DNA of 64,000 bases from Gordonia hongkongensis (GTDB lineage: Bacteria; Actinomycetota; Actinomycetes; Mycobacteriales; Mycobacteriaceae), in the NCBI RefSeq assembly GCF_023078355.1, contig NZ_CP095552.1, positions 2,666,001 through 2,730,000 on the forward strand, read 5' to 3'. The translations under genes were made by a program, and so were the position numbers. This document shows, in pieces, positions 32,796 to 41,745 of this stretch; the stretch's first letter is position 1; each line of letters begins with the position of its first letter. The notes beneath the pieces were generated by a model. It was not told the origin of the DNA, did not search any database, and saw only the letters and a list, made by a program, of their open reading frames with translations.

Positions 32796-35204
32796 ATGAG
32801 CCGAACCGCCACCCGTCCCGCACGGAAGGTCGACGCCGTGCGGGCCGACGGCATTCACCCCGCCGACACGCACGACATCATCCGCGTCCACGGCGCCCGG
32901 GAGAACAACCTCAAGGACGTCAGCGTCGATCTGCCGAAGCGTCGGCTGACGGTCTTCACCGGGGTGTCGGGTTCCGGGAAGAGTTCACTGGTCTTCAGCA
33001 CCATCGCGGCGGAATCCCAGCGCCTCATCAACGAGACGTACAGTGCGTTCGTCCAGGGATTCATGCCGTCGATGGCTCGTCCGGACGTCGACATCCTGGA
33101 GGGTCTGACGACGGCGATCATCGTCGACCAGGAGCGGATGGGTGCCAACGTTCGGTCGACCGTCGGCACGGCCACCGACGCGAACGCGATGCTGCGTATC
33201 CTGTTCAGTCGCTTGGGAACTCCGCATATCGGTTCGCCTCAGGCCTTCTCGTTCAACGTCGCCTCGATCAGCGGGGCGGGTGCGGTGACCATCGAGAAGG
33301 GCGGGCAGAAGGTCAAGGAGCGTCGGAGCTTCTCCATCACCGGCGGGATGTGCCCACGATGCGAGGGCCGCGGCGACGTCTCCGACTTCGACCTCACCGC
33401 GCTGTACGACTCGTCGAAGTCGCTCAACGAGGGCGCGCTGACGATCCCCGGTTACTCCATGGACGGCTGGTACGGCCGGATCTACCGCGGCTGCGGCTTC
33501 TTCGACCCCGACAAGCCAATTGCCAAGTACACCAAGAAGCAACTCAACGACCTGCTCTACAAAGAGCCCACCAAGATCAAGGTCGAGGGCATCAACATCA
33601 CCTACGAGGGTCTGATCCCGAAGATCCAGAAGTCGATGTTGAGCAAGGACCGTGAGGCGATGCAGCCGCACATCCGCGCCTTCGTCGATCGCGCGATCAC
33701 CTTCGCGAAGTGCCCGGACTGTGAGGGCACCCGCCTCACCGCCGAGACCCGCTCGTCGAAGATCAAGGGCATCAGCATCGCCGACGCGTGCGCGATGCAG
33801 ATCAGCGATCTCGCCCAGTGGGTCGCCGAACTCGACGATCCGTCCGCGGCCCCGCTGATCGCCGCGCTGCGGGACCACCTCAACGCGTTCGTCGACATCG
33901 GACTCGGCTACCTGTCCCTGGAACGCCCGGCCGGCACCCTGTCCGGCGGAGAGGCGCAGCGCACCAAGCTGATCCGGCATCTCGGTTCGTCGCTGACCGA
34001 CGTGACCTATGTGTTCGACGAGCCGTCGATCGGTCTGCACCCGCACGACATCACCCGGATGAACGATCTGCTGCGCGCATTGCGGGACAAGGGCAACACG
34101 GTGCTGGTGGTCGAGCACAAGCCGGAGGTGATCGCGATCGCCGACCGCGTCGTCGACATCGGCCCGGGAGCGGGCACCGACGGCGGCACGATCGTGTTCG
34201 AAGGCACCGTCGACGAACTGCGGGCCGCGGACACGCTCACCGGGCGCCATCTAGAGGACCGCGCCGCCGTCAAGGACGAGGTCCGCACGCCCAGTGGCCA
34301 TCTCGAGGTCCGCGGGGCCGACGCCAACAATCTGCGCGATGTCGACGTCGACATCCCGCTCGGTGTGCTGGTCGTGCTCACCGGTGTCGCGGGCTCCGGC
34401 AAGAGTTCGTTGATCAACTCGACGGTCGCCAAGGAGGACGGGGTCGTCTCCATCGACCAGAGCGCCATCAAGGGGTCGCGGCGTTCTAATCCGGCGACCT
34501 ACACCGGTCTGCTCGAGCCGATCCGCAAGGCGTTCGCCAAGGCCAACGGCGTGAAACCCGCCTTGTTCAGCGCGAACTCGGAGGGTGCCTGCCCCAACTG
34601 CAACGGTGCGGGTGTCGTCTACTCCGACCTCGCGATGATGGCCGGCGTCGCCGCGCCCTGCGAGGTGTGCGAGGGCAAGCGATTCCAGGCCGAGGTGCTC
34701 GACTACACCTTCGGCGGCCGCAACATCAGCGAAGTGCTCGAGATGTCGGTCGCCCAGGCGGAGGCCTTCTTCGCCGACGGCGACGCCAAACTCCCGGCGG
34801 CGCACAAGATCCTGCACCGGATGGTCGACGTCGGGCTCGGTTACATCAAGGTCGGTCAGCCGCTGACCACCCTGTCCGGCGGCGAACGCCAGCGCCTGAA
34901 GTTGGCCAGTCACATGGGGGAGAAGGGCGACGTCTACATCCTCGACGAGCCCACCACGGGCCTCCACCTCGCCGATGTGGAACAGCTCCTCGGGCTGCTC
35001 GACCGTCTCGTCGACTCCGGGAAGTCGGTGATCGTCATCGAGCACCATCAGGCGGTGATGGCCCACGCCGACTGGATCATCGACCTCGGCCCGGGCGCCG
35101 GCCACGACGGCGGCCGGATCGTCTTCGAGGGCACGCCCGCCGACATCGTCGCCGACCCATCGACCCTCACCGGTGAGCACCTCGCCGAGTACGTCGGTGC
35201 CTGA
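32796..35204 (+). CDS. UvrA-like ABC ATPase (class II, drug-resistance type)
   Basis: 802 aa, a short UvrA-like protein with two ABC units. Walker A motifs are [12 protein letters not shown] (~residue 56) and [12 protein letters not shown] (~530). ABC signatures are [11 protein letters not shown] (~383) and [11 protein letters not shown] (~693). Zn-type CxxC pairs are [25 protein letters not shown] and CEVCEGKR. Canonical UvrA is ~940-970 aa and includes a UvrB-binding domain that is reduced here. Such short paralogues (for example DrrC) confer resistance to DNA-binding drugs; a role in global excision repair is less likely. The 206-bp gap before it contains no gene. Confidence 0.88.
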
Positions 35205-35268
35205 CCCTGGGGTGCGGGCGGGAAGCGGCGCCTCCCACTGCTCCCTATCCGAAGGAGCGCCCCCGCTG

Positions 35269-35560
35269 CTCCCTGAGGTGCGTAGAGCGGTAGCGACGGC
35301 CTCCCAACGCTCCCTGAGGTGCGAGGAGCGATAGCGATGGCCTCCCAACGCTCCCTGAGGTGCGAGGAGCGATAGCGATGGCCTCCCAACGCTCCCTGAG
35401 GTGCGAGGAGCGATAGCGACGAGCCACGAAGGGTCCGGCGACCGAGGCTCCCAAACCCTAAGTGACGAGCCTTCTTCCGCTCCCTGAGGTGCGAGGAGCG
35501 CAAGCCGCCGGGCCGAGCAAGCGACGAAGGAGCGCGTCGAGGTCGACGAGCCTCGAAGGG
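35269..35560. repeat. 41-bp tandem array of dispersed-repeat heads, plus one full unit
   Basis: Heads CTCCCTGAGGTGCG(A)GGAGCG start at 35269, 35310, 35351 and 35392 with an exact 41-bp period (linker near ATAGCGATGGCCTCCCAACG). A GAGCCACGAAGGGTCC tail follows, then a second full unit near 35479-35560 with CCGCCGGGCCGAGC and GAAGGAGCGCGTCGAGGTCG. It fills the gap between the UvrA-like and GNAT genes (35205-35722), which contains no gene. Confidence 0.8.
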
Positions 35561-35579
35561 TCCAGCAACCAGCCCCCGC

Positions 35580-35649
35580 GACCGACAGACTTCAACTCGA
35601 CCTATGGACTTCGATCGAGGTCTACCGGTCCAGTTGCAGTCTGTCGGTC
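35580..35649. repeat. Large inverted repeat, dispersed hairpin element copy 2
   Basis: GACCGACAGACT (35580-35591) pairs with AGTCTGTCGGTC (35638-35649), extended inward by CAACT/AGTTG after one mismatch. The interior carries GGACTTCGATCGAGGTC, the same core as the hairpin at 5953-5986. Confidence 0.6.
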
Positions 35650-35722
35650 AACAAGCGAGCAGGATCGCGCGAGCAGTACCGGGGTTCAGGTGCGCCAGTG
35701 GGTGCTGTTGGTCGGGCGGTCA

Positions 35723-36245
35723 TCACTGTGCGTTGTTCATGCGTACTTCGTGACAATCCCAGCCGGAGTCGTGACGTGTGGCCCCGTCGAGTTCGAATCC
35801 GTGTTTACGATAGAAGGCCACTGCCCCGCGCGTTGTCGCGTGCAACCCAGAGGTAGGCCGGGATATCCGTTCCGCCGAGCACTGAGGTCATCAAGTCCAT
35901 CGCCACACCGGTGCCGTGATGGCGGAGAACGACATTCAGAGACCACAATTCGGTCGGTGCGGGAGCGTCGTGGTCGCGAGCCGGGCCGCTTGCTGCAAAA
36001 CCGACCATCTCCTGCGTGTCGAGTGAGGTCGCCCACCGGATGCGGATGCCGCGCCCAGCGTGGCCTGCGAGGTCTCCGACGGTCTGTCGCCAGCGTGAGG
36101 CCGACTCCGCAGGAGTGAGCGCATCGAGCCGGTCCTGAGCCACCATTCCCGCATACGTGGCCTTCCAGATGGCGGTGTGCAGGCTTGAGATCTGATCGAT
36201 ATCGCCTGCAACCACCGGCCGAATCTCATAGCTACCCACAGACAC
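35723..36245 (-). pseudogene. GNAT acetyltransferase, one-base frameshift
   Basis: Starts MSVGSYEIRPVVAGDIDQISSLHTAIWKATY..., a GNAT N-terminus. The acetyl-CoA region is LWSLNVVLRHHGTGVAMDLM. The first frame stops at 35805 after RDNARGSGLLS. Shifting one base in the G-run at 35824-35827 gives the standard GNAT ending AVAFYRKHGFELDGATRHDSG and a stop at 35723, about 173 aa in all. One extra G in a GGGG tract therefore explains the break (mutation or sequencing error). Confidence 0.7.
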
Positions 36246-36347
36246 CGGGTCTACCAGACCTCGACCTCAGTGCGAGCGACGTCGGTGAACCCGCGCAGAT
36301 CTGCGTCCTCGCCTCGGCTGTCTCACCGCCGTGGCACCATGTCGGTT

Positions 36348-36509
36348 GATGAACGACGGGCAAGGTGAGAGTGGATCGTCGCGATCCGTCTCAGGGGTAA
36401 CCCCTGGGTGCACTTCACAGCTGGTCCCTGCGTCCGACGCCGGCGCGCACGCTGCACGTGCCACACGGCGCCGCTGCACAGTTCTGGTCACCCCATCCGT
36501 CGTTCATCA
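36348..36509 (+). ncRNA. Candidate retron msr-msd RNA upstream of the reverse transcriptase
   Basis: A perfect 13-nt inverted repeat, TGATGAACGACGG (36348-36360) and CCGTCGTTCATCA (36497-36509), brackets 136 nt. It ends 30 nt before the RT start codon, exactly as retron a1/a2 repeats bracket the msr-msd. Inside, in order: a stem GAGA-GGATCG/CGATCC-TCTC (36367-36391), a stem CAGGGG/CCCCTG with a TAA loop (36392-36406), and a GC-rich region with nested CGGCGC/GCGCCG and GCACG/CGTGC stems (36441-36473) suited to an msd hairpin. Whether it is reverse transcribed is unknown. The branching G was not assigned. Confidence 0.6.
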
Positions 36510-36539
36510 CCACGTCAGCTCGCGACGCGACACGGCGCC

Positions 36540-37811
36540 GTGACCGAACCGTTCCTGCAACCGCATGAGGCAGCGGAAGTCGCTGCGGCCTTCTCGCGCA
36601 CGTATACCGCGTGGACGTGGCCGGAGATCCTGGCGGCAGTGACAGCGGTCCTGCCCGCTGAGGTCACCTCCGAAGTCGCCGCCGGCATCATCGAACTCTC
36701 GCCTCACGAACCGCGACATCCCGCGACCGTGATGATCCAGGCCCTCGCGCCGTGGACCCACCCGGCACCCGTCGCCGCTCAACCCGTCGTCGTGCACGAA
36801 CCACGTTCCGCGGGAACGGTGTCCGACGCTCTGCCCGATCTCTACGATGTCGAGCAGTTCGCGCACTGGCTCGACTTCACCGTGCCCGAGCTCGAATGGT
36901 TCGCCGACCGCGGCCAATGGCTACGAACGGCGCGCCCGCCGTTGCGTCACTACCGAATCTGGCGGCGTGAGAAGCGGGACGGTGTCCGGGTCATCGAAGC
37001 TCCGAAACCCCGTATGCGCGAGACACAGCGTCGCCTGCTCAGACGGTTGATTGAGCGCATTCCGGCGCATCCCGCAGCACGCGGCTTCATACCCGGCTCG
37101 TCACCGGCTGCTTTCGCCTGGCCGCACACGGACCGTCCCGTGGTACTGCGCGTCGACCTCCGGCATTGCTTCGAGACGATCACCGTACCGCGCGTCCGAG
37201 CAGTGTTCCGGCAGGCCGGCTACCCGCCGCACATCGCCCGCCTGCTCGCCGAATTGTGCACCACGGCAACGCCTGTGGACGAACTCCGCGGTATCGATCA
37301 CACGCACGCAGCACTCCTTCGGGAACGACACCTGCCGCAAGGTGCGCCGACCTCGCCGCATCTGGCGAACCTCGTGATGCGGCCGCTCGATCGGCGGCTC
37401 GACGGGTACGCCCGCCGTCACGGCCTCCGCTACACCCGCTACGGCGACGACCTCGCGATCTCGGGCGACGCGATGAACGCCGACCGCGCGCTGTGGACCG
37501 TGCTCCGCATCGTCGAAGACGAGCGATTCACCGTGCACCCGGAGAAGGTCCGGATCATGCACAGTCATCAGCGCCAACACCTTGCCGGTCTCGTCGTCAA
37601 CGACCGTCCGCAGGTCGCCAGATCCGACTACGACAATCTGCGGGCCCTGCTCCACAACGCCCGCCGGCACGGGGCGTCGTCGCAGAATCACGACGAGCAC
37701 CCGGACTTCCGCGCACACGTCTACGGACTCATCGCGTGGGTCGGTGCGACGGGGGAGACGCGCCGACGCCGGTTGCTGAACATGGCCCGCACCGTCGACT
37801 GGGACAGCTGA
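36540..37811 (+). CDS. Retron-like reverse transcriptase
   Basis: 423 aa, GTG start. Fingers/palm motifs: RVIEAPKPRMRETQRRLL (149-167), GFIPGSSPAAFAWPH (182-196), VLRVDLRHCFETI (202-214, first catalytic Asp), LPQGAPTSPHLANLVMRPLDRRL (265-287), and YTRYGDDLAISGD (298-310, YGDD box). Then FTVHPEKVRIM and HLAGLVVNDRP (347-357). Gene order and the PTSP, YxDD and xxGLVVN signatures fit retron RTs. However, the NAxxH position reads FAWPH and the VTG position reads LAG, so it is a diverged member. Residues 1-100 are an extension of no recognised family. No effector gene is fused; the next gene is a globin 134 bp away. Confidence 0.85.
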   Translation: MTEPFLQPHEAAEVAAAFSRTYTAWTWPEILAAVTAVLPAEVTSEVAAGIIELSPHEPRHPATVMIQALAPWTHPAPVAAQPVVVHEPRSAGTVSDALPDLYDVEQFAHWLDFTVPELEWFADRGQWLRTARPPLRHYRIWRREKRDGVRVIEAPKPRMRETQRRLLRRLIERIPAHPAARGFIPGSSPAAFAWPHTDRPVVLRVDLRHCFETITVPRVRAVFRQAGYPPHIARLLAELCTTATPVDELRGIDHTHAALLRERHLPQGAPTSPHLANLVMRPLDRRLDGYARRHGLRYTRYGDDLAISGDAMNADRALWTVLRIVEDERFTVHPEKVRIMHSHQRQHLAGLVVNDRPQVARSDYDNLRALLHNARRHGASSQNHDEHPDFRAHVYGLIAWVGATGETRRRRLLNMARTVDWDS

Positions 37812-37945
37812 CAACCTCTGAAGACGGACCAAACGCCCGAACCATCCCGAACCTCACACCGGCTGCGGTTCGCTGTGAGACCACTGTTACCTCGGCCTTC
37901 CCCGCAGCGCGCCCAGTCGCAATGCCGGTGCACCAAGGTCCGTGC

Positions 37946-41423: not shown

Positions 41424-41745
41424 CCACCGCTCCCCGGGGGTGCGAGTAGCGCAGGCACCATCCCACCGCTCTCCGGGGTGCGAGCAGCGCGAGCACCGGC
41501 CCACCGCTCTCCGGGGTGCGAGTAGCGCAAGCACCGGTCCACCGCTCTCCGGGGTGCGAGTAGCGCGAGCACCGGCCCACCGCTCTCCGGGGGTGCGAGC
41601 AGCGCTAGCACCAGCCCACCGGTCTCCGGGGTGCGAGTAGCGCAAGCACCAACCCACCGCTCCCTGAGGTGCGAGGAGCGATAGCCGCCGGGCCGAGCAA
41701 GCGACTAAGGAGCGCGTCGAGGTCGACGAGCCACGAAGGGTCCCA
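41424..41745. repeat. 38-bp minisatellite merging into a full dispersed repeat
   Basis: Seven units starting at 41424, 41463, 41501, 41539, 41577, 41616 and 41654 (spacing 38-39 bp) with a form near CCACCGCTCTCCGGGGTGCG followed by AGTAGCGCAAGCACCGGC. The last unit passes into the genome-wide element (CTCCCTGAGGTGCGAGGAGCG, then CCGCCGGGCCGAGC, then GAGCCACGAAGGGTCC). No spacers differ between units, so it is not a CRISPR. Confidence 0.85.

Follow-up and report, generated by a model that had tools for sequence, protein, structure and literature searches.

Does a structured region directly upstream from a reverse transcriptase (RT) gene in Gordonia hongkongensis serve as the template RNA of a retron? 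The locus lies in a stretch of 64,000 nucleotides (nt) of the 5.4-Mb genome (NZ_CP095552.1, positions 2,666,001 to 2,730,000; here called the window, in whose numbering coordinates are given), where a sequence-only reading had recognized the layout of a standard retron, an inverted repeat (arms a1 and a2) bracketing an msr-msd region immediately before an RT. That layout is supported by covariation in the RNA, by the profile matches of the RT, and by its fold. We conclude, with a probability of roughly 0.85, that the locus is a two-part retron in which template RNA and RT form one cassette and whose mechanism is that of a retron up to the synthesis of multicopy single-stranded DNA (msDNA).

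Inverted repeat, RNA structure, and covariation

The perfect 13-nt repeat first noticed in the sequence is real, and its right arm (36497-36509) is where it had been placed; the left arm was one base off, lying at 36347-36359 rather than at 36348-36360, a placement that includes one G-U pair. With mismatches, the arms extend to 22 nt at 82% complementarity (Table 1), so that both the perfect and the extended repeat fall in the range of about 8 to 30 bases over which the ends of a retron RNA are complementary. Arms of at least 13 bp were seen in none of 1,000 dinucleotide shuffles of the 250 nt upstream from the RT, scored for the longest perfect arms at a span of 130 to 200 (shuffle maximum, 12; mean, 6.7). 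The repeat closes a structured RNA of 163 nt, which ends 30 nt before the RT. Its folding energy is -78.1 kcal/mol, whereas shuffles average -63.6 (z = -3.27), with 1 in 200 of them reaching so low a value.

Covariation of the repeat in homologous loci had been set beforehand as the test of the proposal, and the RNA passed it. In alignment A1, which comprises 23 closer loci and was made with MAFFT alone, RNAalifold found 42 pairs, 13 of them with double changes; 97.3% of the cells were paired (92.3% in shuffles), the covariation score was 0.200 (0.099 in shuffles), and none of the five overall measures was reached by any of 500 shuffles. The closing helix had double changes in 10 of its 14 pairs. 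Sliding the partners along A1 lowered pairing to 32 to 51%, an easy control, as the structure had been derived from the same alignment; more weight attaches to the compensatory counts. Inside the repeat, the several stems that had been proposed proved to be a pair of msr hairpins and an msd hairpin in two parts, each showing covariation, in keeping with the one to three msr hairpins and single msd hairpin of a retron.

The more distant loci (L031 to L058) were kept for a search with a covariance model, R1, from which seven loci duplicating others (L001, L021, L022, L024, L026, L029, and L030) were left out; L016, omitted from A1 because the repeat finder had missed its RNA, later had its RNA found by the model. 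R1 matched 46 of the 52 loci at an E value of 0.001, always at full length. L049 (E = 0.014) and L048 (E = 0.058) fell below the threshold, and L050, L051, L055, and L058 gave no match in a search to an E value of 1; a smaller search gave short or weak matches in L050, L051, and L055 (E = 0.18 to 0.89). The 46 matches were retained from 74 at an E value of 1, the 28 dropped ones being mostly reverse-strand or partial, many on the same RNAs, plus the weak L048 and L049 matches. The alignment of these 46 rows, which was fitted to the model and leans toward it, showed double changes in 33 of the 42 pairs and in all 14 pairs of the closing helix. In its own genome, R1 has a single match at an E value of 0.001.

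Table 1. Features of the retron cassette in the window (all coordinates on the forward strand of the window)
Feature	Position	Strand	Basis or detail
-10-like promoter hexamer CACCAT (putative)	36335..36340	+	Ends 6 nt before a1
a1 arm	36347..36368	+	Perfect part 36347-36359; inner GGTGA 36364-36368; covariation
Predicted priming (branch) guanosine	36369	+	First base 3' of the a1/a2 helix; G in 46/46 rows
msr hairpin 1	36373..36387	+	Compensatory changes in 5/5 pairs (46 rows)
msr hairpin 2, AGGGG-UAA-CCCCU core	36388..36411	+	Compensatory changes in 6/10 pairs; 96.9% of cells paired
msd hairpin	36435..36473	+	Compensatory changes in 8/11 pairs (46 rows)
msd inner stem	36447..36461	+	Triloop 36453-36455, TGC in RNA sense, GCA in msDNA
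GG opposite priming G, predicted start of reverse transcription	36486..36487	+	G in 46/46 and 44/46 rows
a2 arm	36488..36509	+	Perfect part 36497-36509; covariation
Retron-type RT, 423 aa, GTG start	36540..37811	+	Profiles, fold, dN/dS
N-terminal four-helix domain, residues 5-72	36552..36755	+	AlphaFold2 model
Low-confidence linker, about residues 76-94	36765..36821	+	pLDDT <50 at residues 80-90
RT core	36822..37808	+	FAWPH (192-196), YGDD (301-304), LAG (348-350)

Predicted priming site and msDNA hairpin

The priming guanosine of retrons lies within the inner end of a1 or immediately 3' to it, according to the portion of a 2019 review that was available (PMC6868368). Across the 46 aligned rows, G36369 is invariant while the neighboring helix varies, and it is the predicted primer; its context is GAGA, not TAGC, and that of Eco2 is CAGA. 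We also found the hexamer YANNNT within -18 to +4 of the start of the RNA match in 43 of the 46 rows (background, 16%) and TANNNT at the same location in 19 of the 46 (background, 1.6%), the window having CANNNT. Because this hexamer, which we take to be a -10-like promoter element, stands just before a1 in 43 of the 46 rows, the transcript probably starts at about a1. Pairing of a1 with a2 would then leave G36369 at the terminus of the closing helix, and the RT would bind the two msr hairpins, use the 2'-OH of G36369 as the primer, and copy the msd leftward, beginning near G36487 and passing through the hairpin. This would yield a branched RNA-DNA with roughly 50 to 75 nt of DNA (from 36487 to an end point between 36435 and 36412), which would carry a GNA triloop on its DNA hairpin and remain bound to the RT.

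The triloop of the msd is UNC in 43 of the 46 rows (the exceptions being L017, L044, and L057), which corresponds to GNA in DNA. Stable GNA minihairpins were reportedly described by Hirao in 1994 and by Yoshizawa in 1997. In the accessible parts of PMC6479982 and PMC11101458, GNA loops are said to give extraordinarily stable DNA minihairpins. The pair adjacent to the loop is C-A (RNA sense) in the window and in six other rows; such A-C cells would be tolerated and G-U cells avoided in the template if the msDNA is under selection, because the DNA would have T-G in the one case and C-A in the other. Helices taken as RNA contained 131 G-U and 11 A-C cells, whereas the msd helices contained 3 and 11 (Fisher P = 9e-9). 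The RNA side comprised a1/a2, both msr hairpins, and a middle helix of two pairs whose placement there is an assumption; its counts were 105 and 10 without the middle helix and 41 and 10 when restricted to a1/a2 and hairpin 1 (P = 8e-5). The cells are not independent, a point addressed by counting once per column and type, which gave 22 and 8 versus 2 and 6 in the msd, leaving out the middle helix (P = 0.034). The MAFFT-only alignment gave 58 and 4 versus 0 and 3 in the msd. Selection acting on the DNA copy would be expected to leave such a surplus of A-C over G-U in the msd, which may be a hint of msDNA.

An RNA that is structured, strongly conserved, and located directly upstream from a start codon could instead be a regulatory leader at the 5' end of the RT gene, such as an attenuator or riboswitch, with no role as a template. 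A long-range closing helix, the invariant G36369, and an A-C excess confined to the msd would be unexpected in such a leader, and a search of Rfam found no family matching the RNA; we consider this explanation very improbable.

Reverse transcriptase

The two-part retron also finds support in the protein. The RT begins 30 nt after a2, as had been proposed, with translation starting at GTG 36540; most close relatives have ATG or GTG there, and a longer frame from GTG 36408 would begin within the RNA. The proposal of an RT with retron-type motifs held as far as the enzyme family is concerned: the protein matches Pfam RVT_1 (E = 6.7e-21), retron profiles scored 134 to 160 bits, group II 48, and Drt2 38 (all under the cut-off), and rows 1 to 14 of a fold comparison were all retron entries, so that its best profiles and folds, rather than a tree, place it in the retron clade. 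The motifs are partly kept. Region X is FAWPH (NAxxH-like) and region Y is LAG (VTG-like; LTG in two relatives), with A, H, and G kept and N, V, and T replaced; in the available part of PMC6868368, 2 of 16 validated retrons deviate in each of these motifs. Other than exact NAxxH and VTG, which are kept in variant form, the anatomy of the cassette shows the retron features that we tested. This partial retention, together with the use of structured RNAs by other bacterial RTs, might indicate that the enzyme is of the DRT/UG type or group II-like and makes a different product with the RNA, but the profile scores and the uniformly retron entries in the fold comparison argue against this reading, which we hold to be highly unlikely.

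The RT is under purifying selection, with dN/dS values versus five relatives of 0.12 to 0.16 over the whole protein and 0.08 to 0.11 over the RT core. Decay of the cassette to a remnant might be read from in-frame stops within the RT match of three relatives (one in G006, two in G036, and one in G068, among 50 genomes with strong matches) and from the broken frame that adjoins the cassette in the window. Against this stand the low dN/dS values, the open RT frame, and the intact RNA of the window, and a decaying remnant is in our view extremely improbable.

The sole extra part of the RT is its N-terminal four-helix domain, modeled by AlphaFold2 with a predicted local distance difference test score (pLDDT) of about 95 to 96 over residues 11 to 70 in the full-length protein and a mean of 94.8 for the domain alone. 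A structure search with this domain gave no convincing match, and a Pfam search gave none.

Distribution among relatives

A search of 151 genomes with the RT, its own included, gave matches in 56 at an E value of 0.001, 6 of them weak and 50 below 1e-30; the latter divide into 22 genomes from the genus, 12 from the family, and 16 from the order. The nearest named relatives are from Gordonia species, and the 120 listed of 435 relatives are from Gordonia, Williamsia, Dietzia, Nocardia, Tsukamurella, and Rhodococcus. RNA and RT occur together: within the genus, R1 (with stricter filters) found the RNA in 22 of 59 genomes, and the RT is present in precisely these 22 (E < 1e-60). Under the stricter filters, R1 matched 5 of 394 genomes in an even sample of the class, own genome included, and in a sample of the phylum, the RT matched 3 of 296 genomes at an E value of 1e-40, namely its own, one of the same family, and one outside the class. 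Outside the class, R1 also matched upstream from an RT in L102 (E = 6e-4 in a search of only 73 kb).

A close relative of the RT lies on a Dietzia plasmid. A 43% relative on a plasmid of Burkholderia arboris (L098) may be a hint of transfer across phyla. On that plasmid, positions 2470-2645 before the RT hold an R1 match (E = 0.0012 in the 73-kb search) and a 17-nt repeat with three G-U pairs.

Insertion site, neighboring genes, and biological role

In the window, the cassette and a broken acetyltransferase-like frame lie between a gene for a UvrA-like ABC protein and a globin gene (Pfam), the latter downstream on the same strand. Judging from the loci compared, this site (35204-37940) is a small variable insertion spot. 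UvrA-like and globin genes adjoin without an insert in L088, L089, and L096, and L084 to L087, which have no retron, carry other cargo between them (a DUF222/HNH protein in L085). The broken frame (35720-36245, reverse strand), which we read as GNAT acetyltransferase-like, is divided between two frames in the window and open for 192 codons in G057 and G012; a Pfam search of the window's frame gave no match. Tandem repeats at 35268-35421 (41 nt) and 41424-41680 (38 nt) share a similar GGTGCGAGnAGCG core beside different genes and are possibly one repeat family.

Neighboring genes revealed no common partner. Scanning 71 of the 74 nearest neighbors (all except the window's two and one of L032; L044 gave no called RT) against defense models at an E value of 1e-10 gave one match (PD-T4-2_B) and no recurrent effector. 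The commonest Pfam families at an E value of 1e-5 were SpoU_methylase (7/71) and DNA_pol3_alpha (4/71), no family occurring in more than 7 of the 71. The downstream gene was on the opposite strand in 25 of 37 loci (26 as called, the window's call having been corrected; gene calling was heuristic and may hold further errors). By adjacency, no effector next to or fused with the RT, as in tripartite retrons, was found. SpoU_methylase and DNA_pol3_alpha are the families of the upstream and downstream neighbors in L028, and genes of these clusters lie on either side of the RT in other Williamsia loci as well as in a distant member of Gordonia, which suggests an old residence of the retron at this site in the Williamsia and distant Gordonia lineage. 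In L026 to L028 and L031, the retron family stands just after a DNA polymerase III alpha cluster gene, and in several of these the SpoU methylase is close.

In typical retrons, a toxic effector accompanies the RT and the RNA (PMC12548924, in the part available), and the same retron might be an ordinary tripartite defense system whose effector lies elsewhere in the genome or varies with the host. A gene acting in trans would be invisible to neighbor counts, and in relatives other cargo occupies the site beside the UvrA-like gene; the single defense match, the lack of any widespread Pfam family among the neighbors, and the predominantly opposite downstream genes weigh against it. We regard this arrangement as a serious possibility, at somewhat less than even odds. 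By analogy alone, a role in phage defense is likely for the two-part retron. Three candidates could account for its biological role: an effector gene acting in trans, the N-terminal domain serving as effector or dock, or msDNA working by itself. Because the scans beside the cassette turned up no effector gene, the four-helix domain on its flexible linker would most likely dock a partner or act itself. A more doubtful proposal is that of a retron lineage without a separate effector, in which msDNA with its deeply conserved GNA hairpin would be a ligand or decoy, the RT with its four-helix domain would be the sole protein partner, and the cell function, in Mycobacteriales, would be one outside defense islands.

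Comparison with known systems

The literature on which we base novelty consists of the available parts of PMC4244168, PMC6868368, PMC8867640, PMC12548924, PMC12262390, PMC9252829, PMC9090908, and PMC6498646, the main retron surveys being outside this scope. Within these parts, RT diversity is described as low in Actinobacteria (PMC4244168), which are named only among putative, bioinformatically found retrons (PMC6868368). A related actinobacterium, Rhodococcus ruber Chol-4, has a retron-type RT as a gene label (PMC6498646, where the available text does not contain the word "msDNA"), a likeness by label alone.

The two best PADLOC models for the window RT, and for 10 of 10 relatives scanned, were RT_other (PDLC02949) and RT_outgroup (PDLC03740), models of an RT alone to which no retron type is assigned and whose match in the window also spans most of the N-terminal domain. 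The next best, RT_XIII (retron type XIII), scored 305 bits over the RT core, about 280 bits lower than the best models, and left the N-terminal domain uncovered. A literature search that did not take in the main retron surveys found no RNA or effector described for RT_other or RT_outgroup. The RT belongs to a retron clade that PADLOC leaves untyped, a little-known family, to which our analysis adds an RNA part with covariation, a base predicted to prime synthesis, and a model usable for searches, making the clade directly testable. A family with a conserved DNA hairpin and no adjacent effector found bears on whether retrons always restrain a toxin, and an RT from GC-rich hosts may serve for the production of single-stranded DNA in actinobacteria.

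Compared with the RTs of Ec86 (Eco1) and Ec67 (Eco2), the window RT has the extra N-terminal four-helix domain and carries FAWPH and LAG, not NAxxH and VTG; the window retron has no adjacent effector that we could find and no fused nuclease, and its RNA is without an Rfam match. Cassettes of msr, msd, and RT alone are called "standard" in the part of the 2019 review available (PMC6868368), and Retron-Bth1 of Bacillus thuringiensis is described, in the accessible part of PMC12548924, as having no obvious effector and an unclassified RT. The Gordonia family can be likened by description to Retron-Bth1 and such stand-alone cassettes; the N-terminal domain and the conserved triloop are traits of the Gordonia family.
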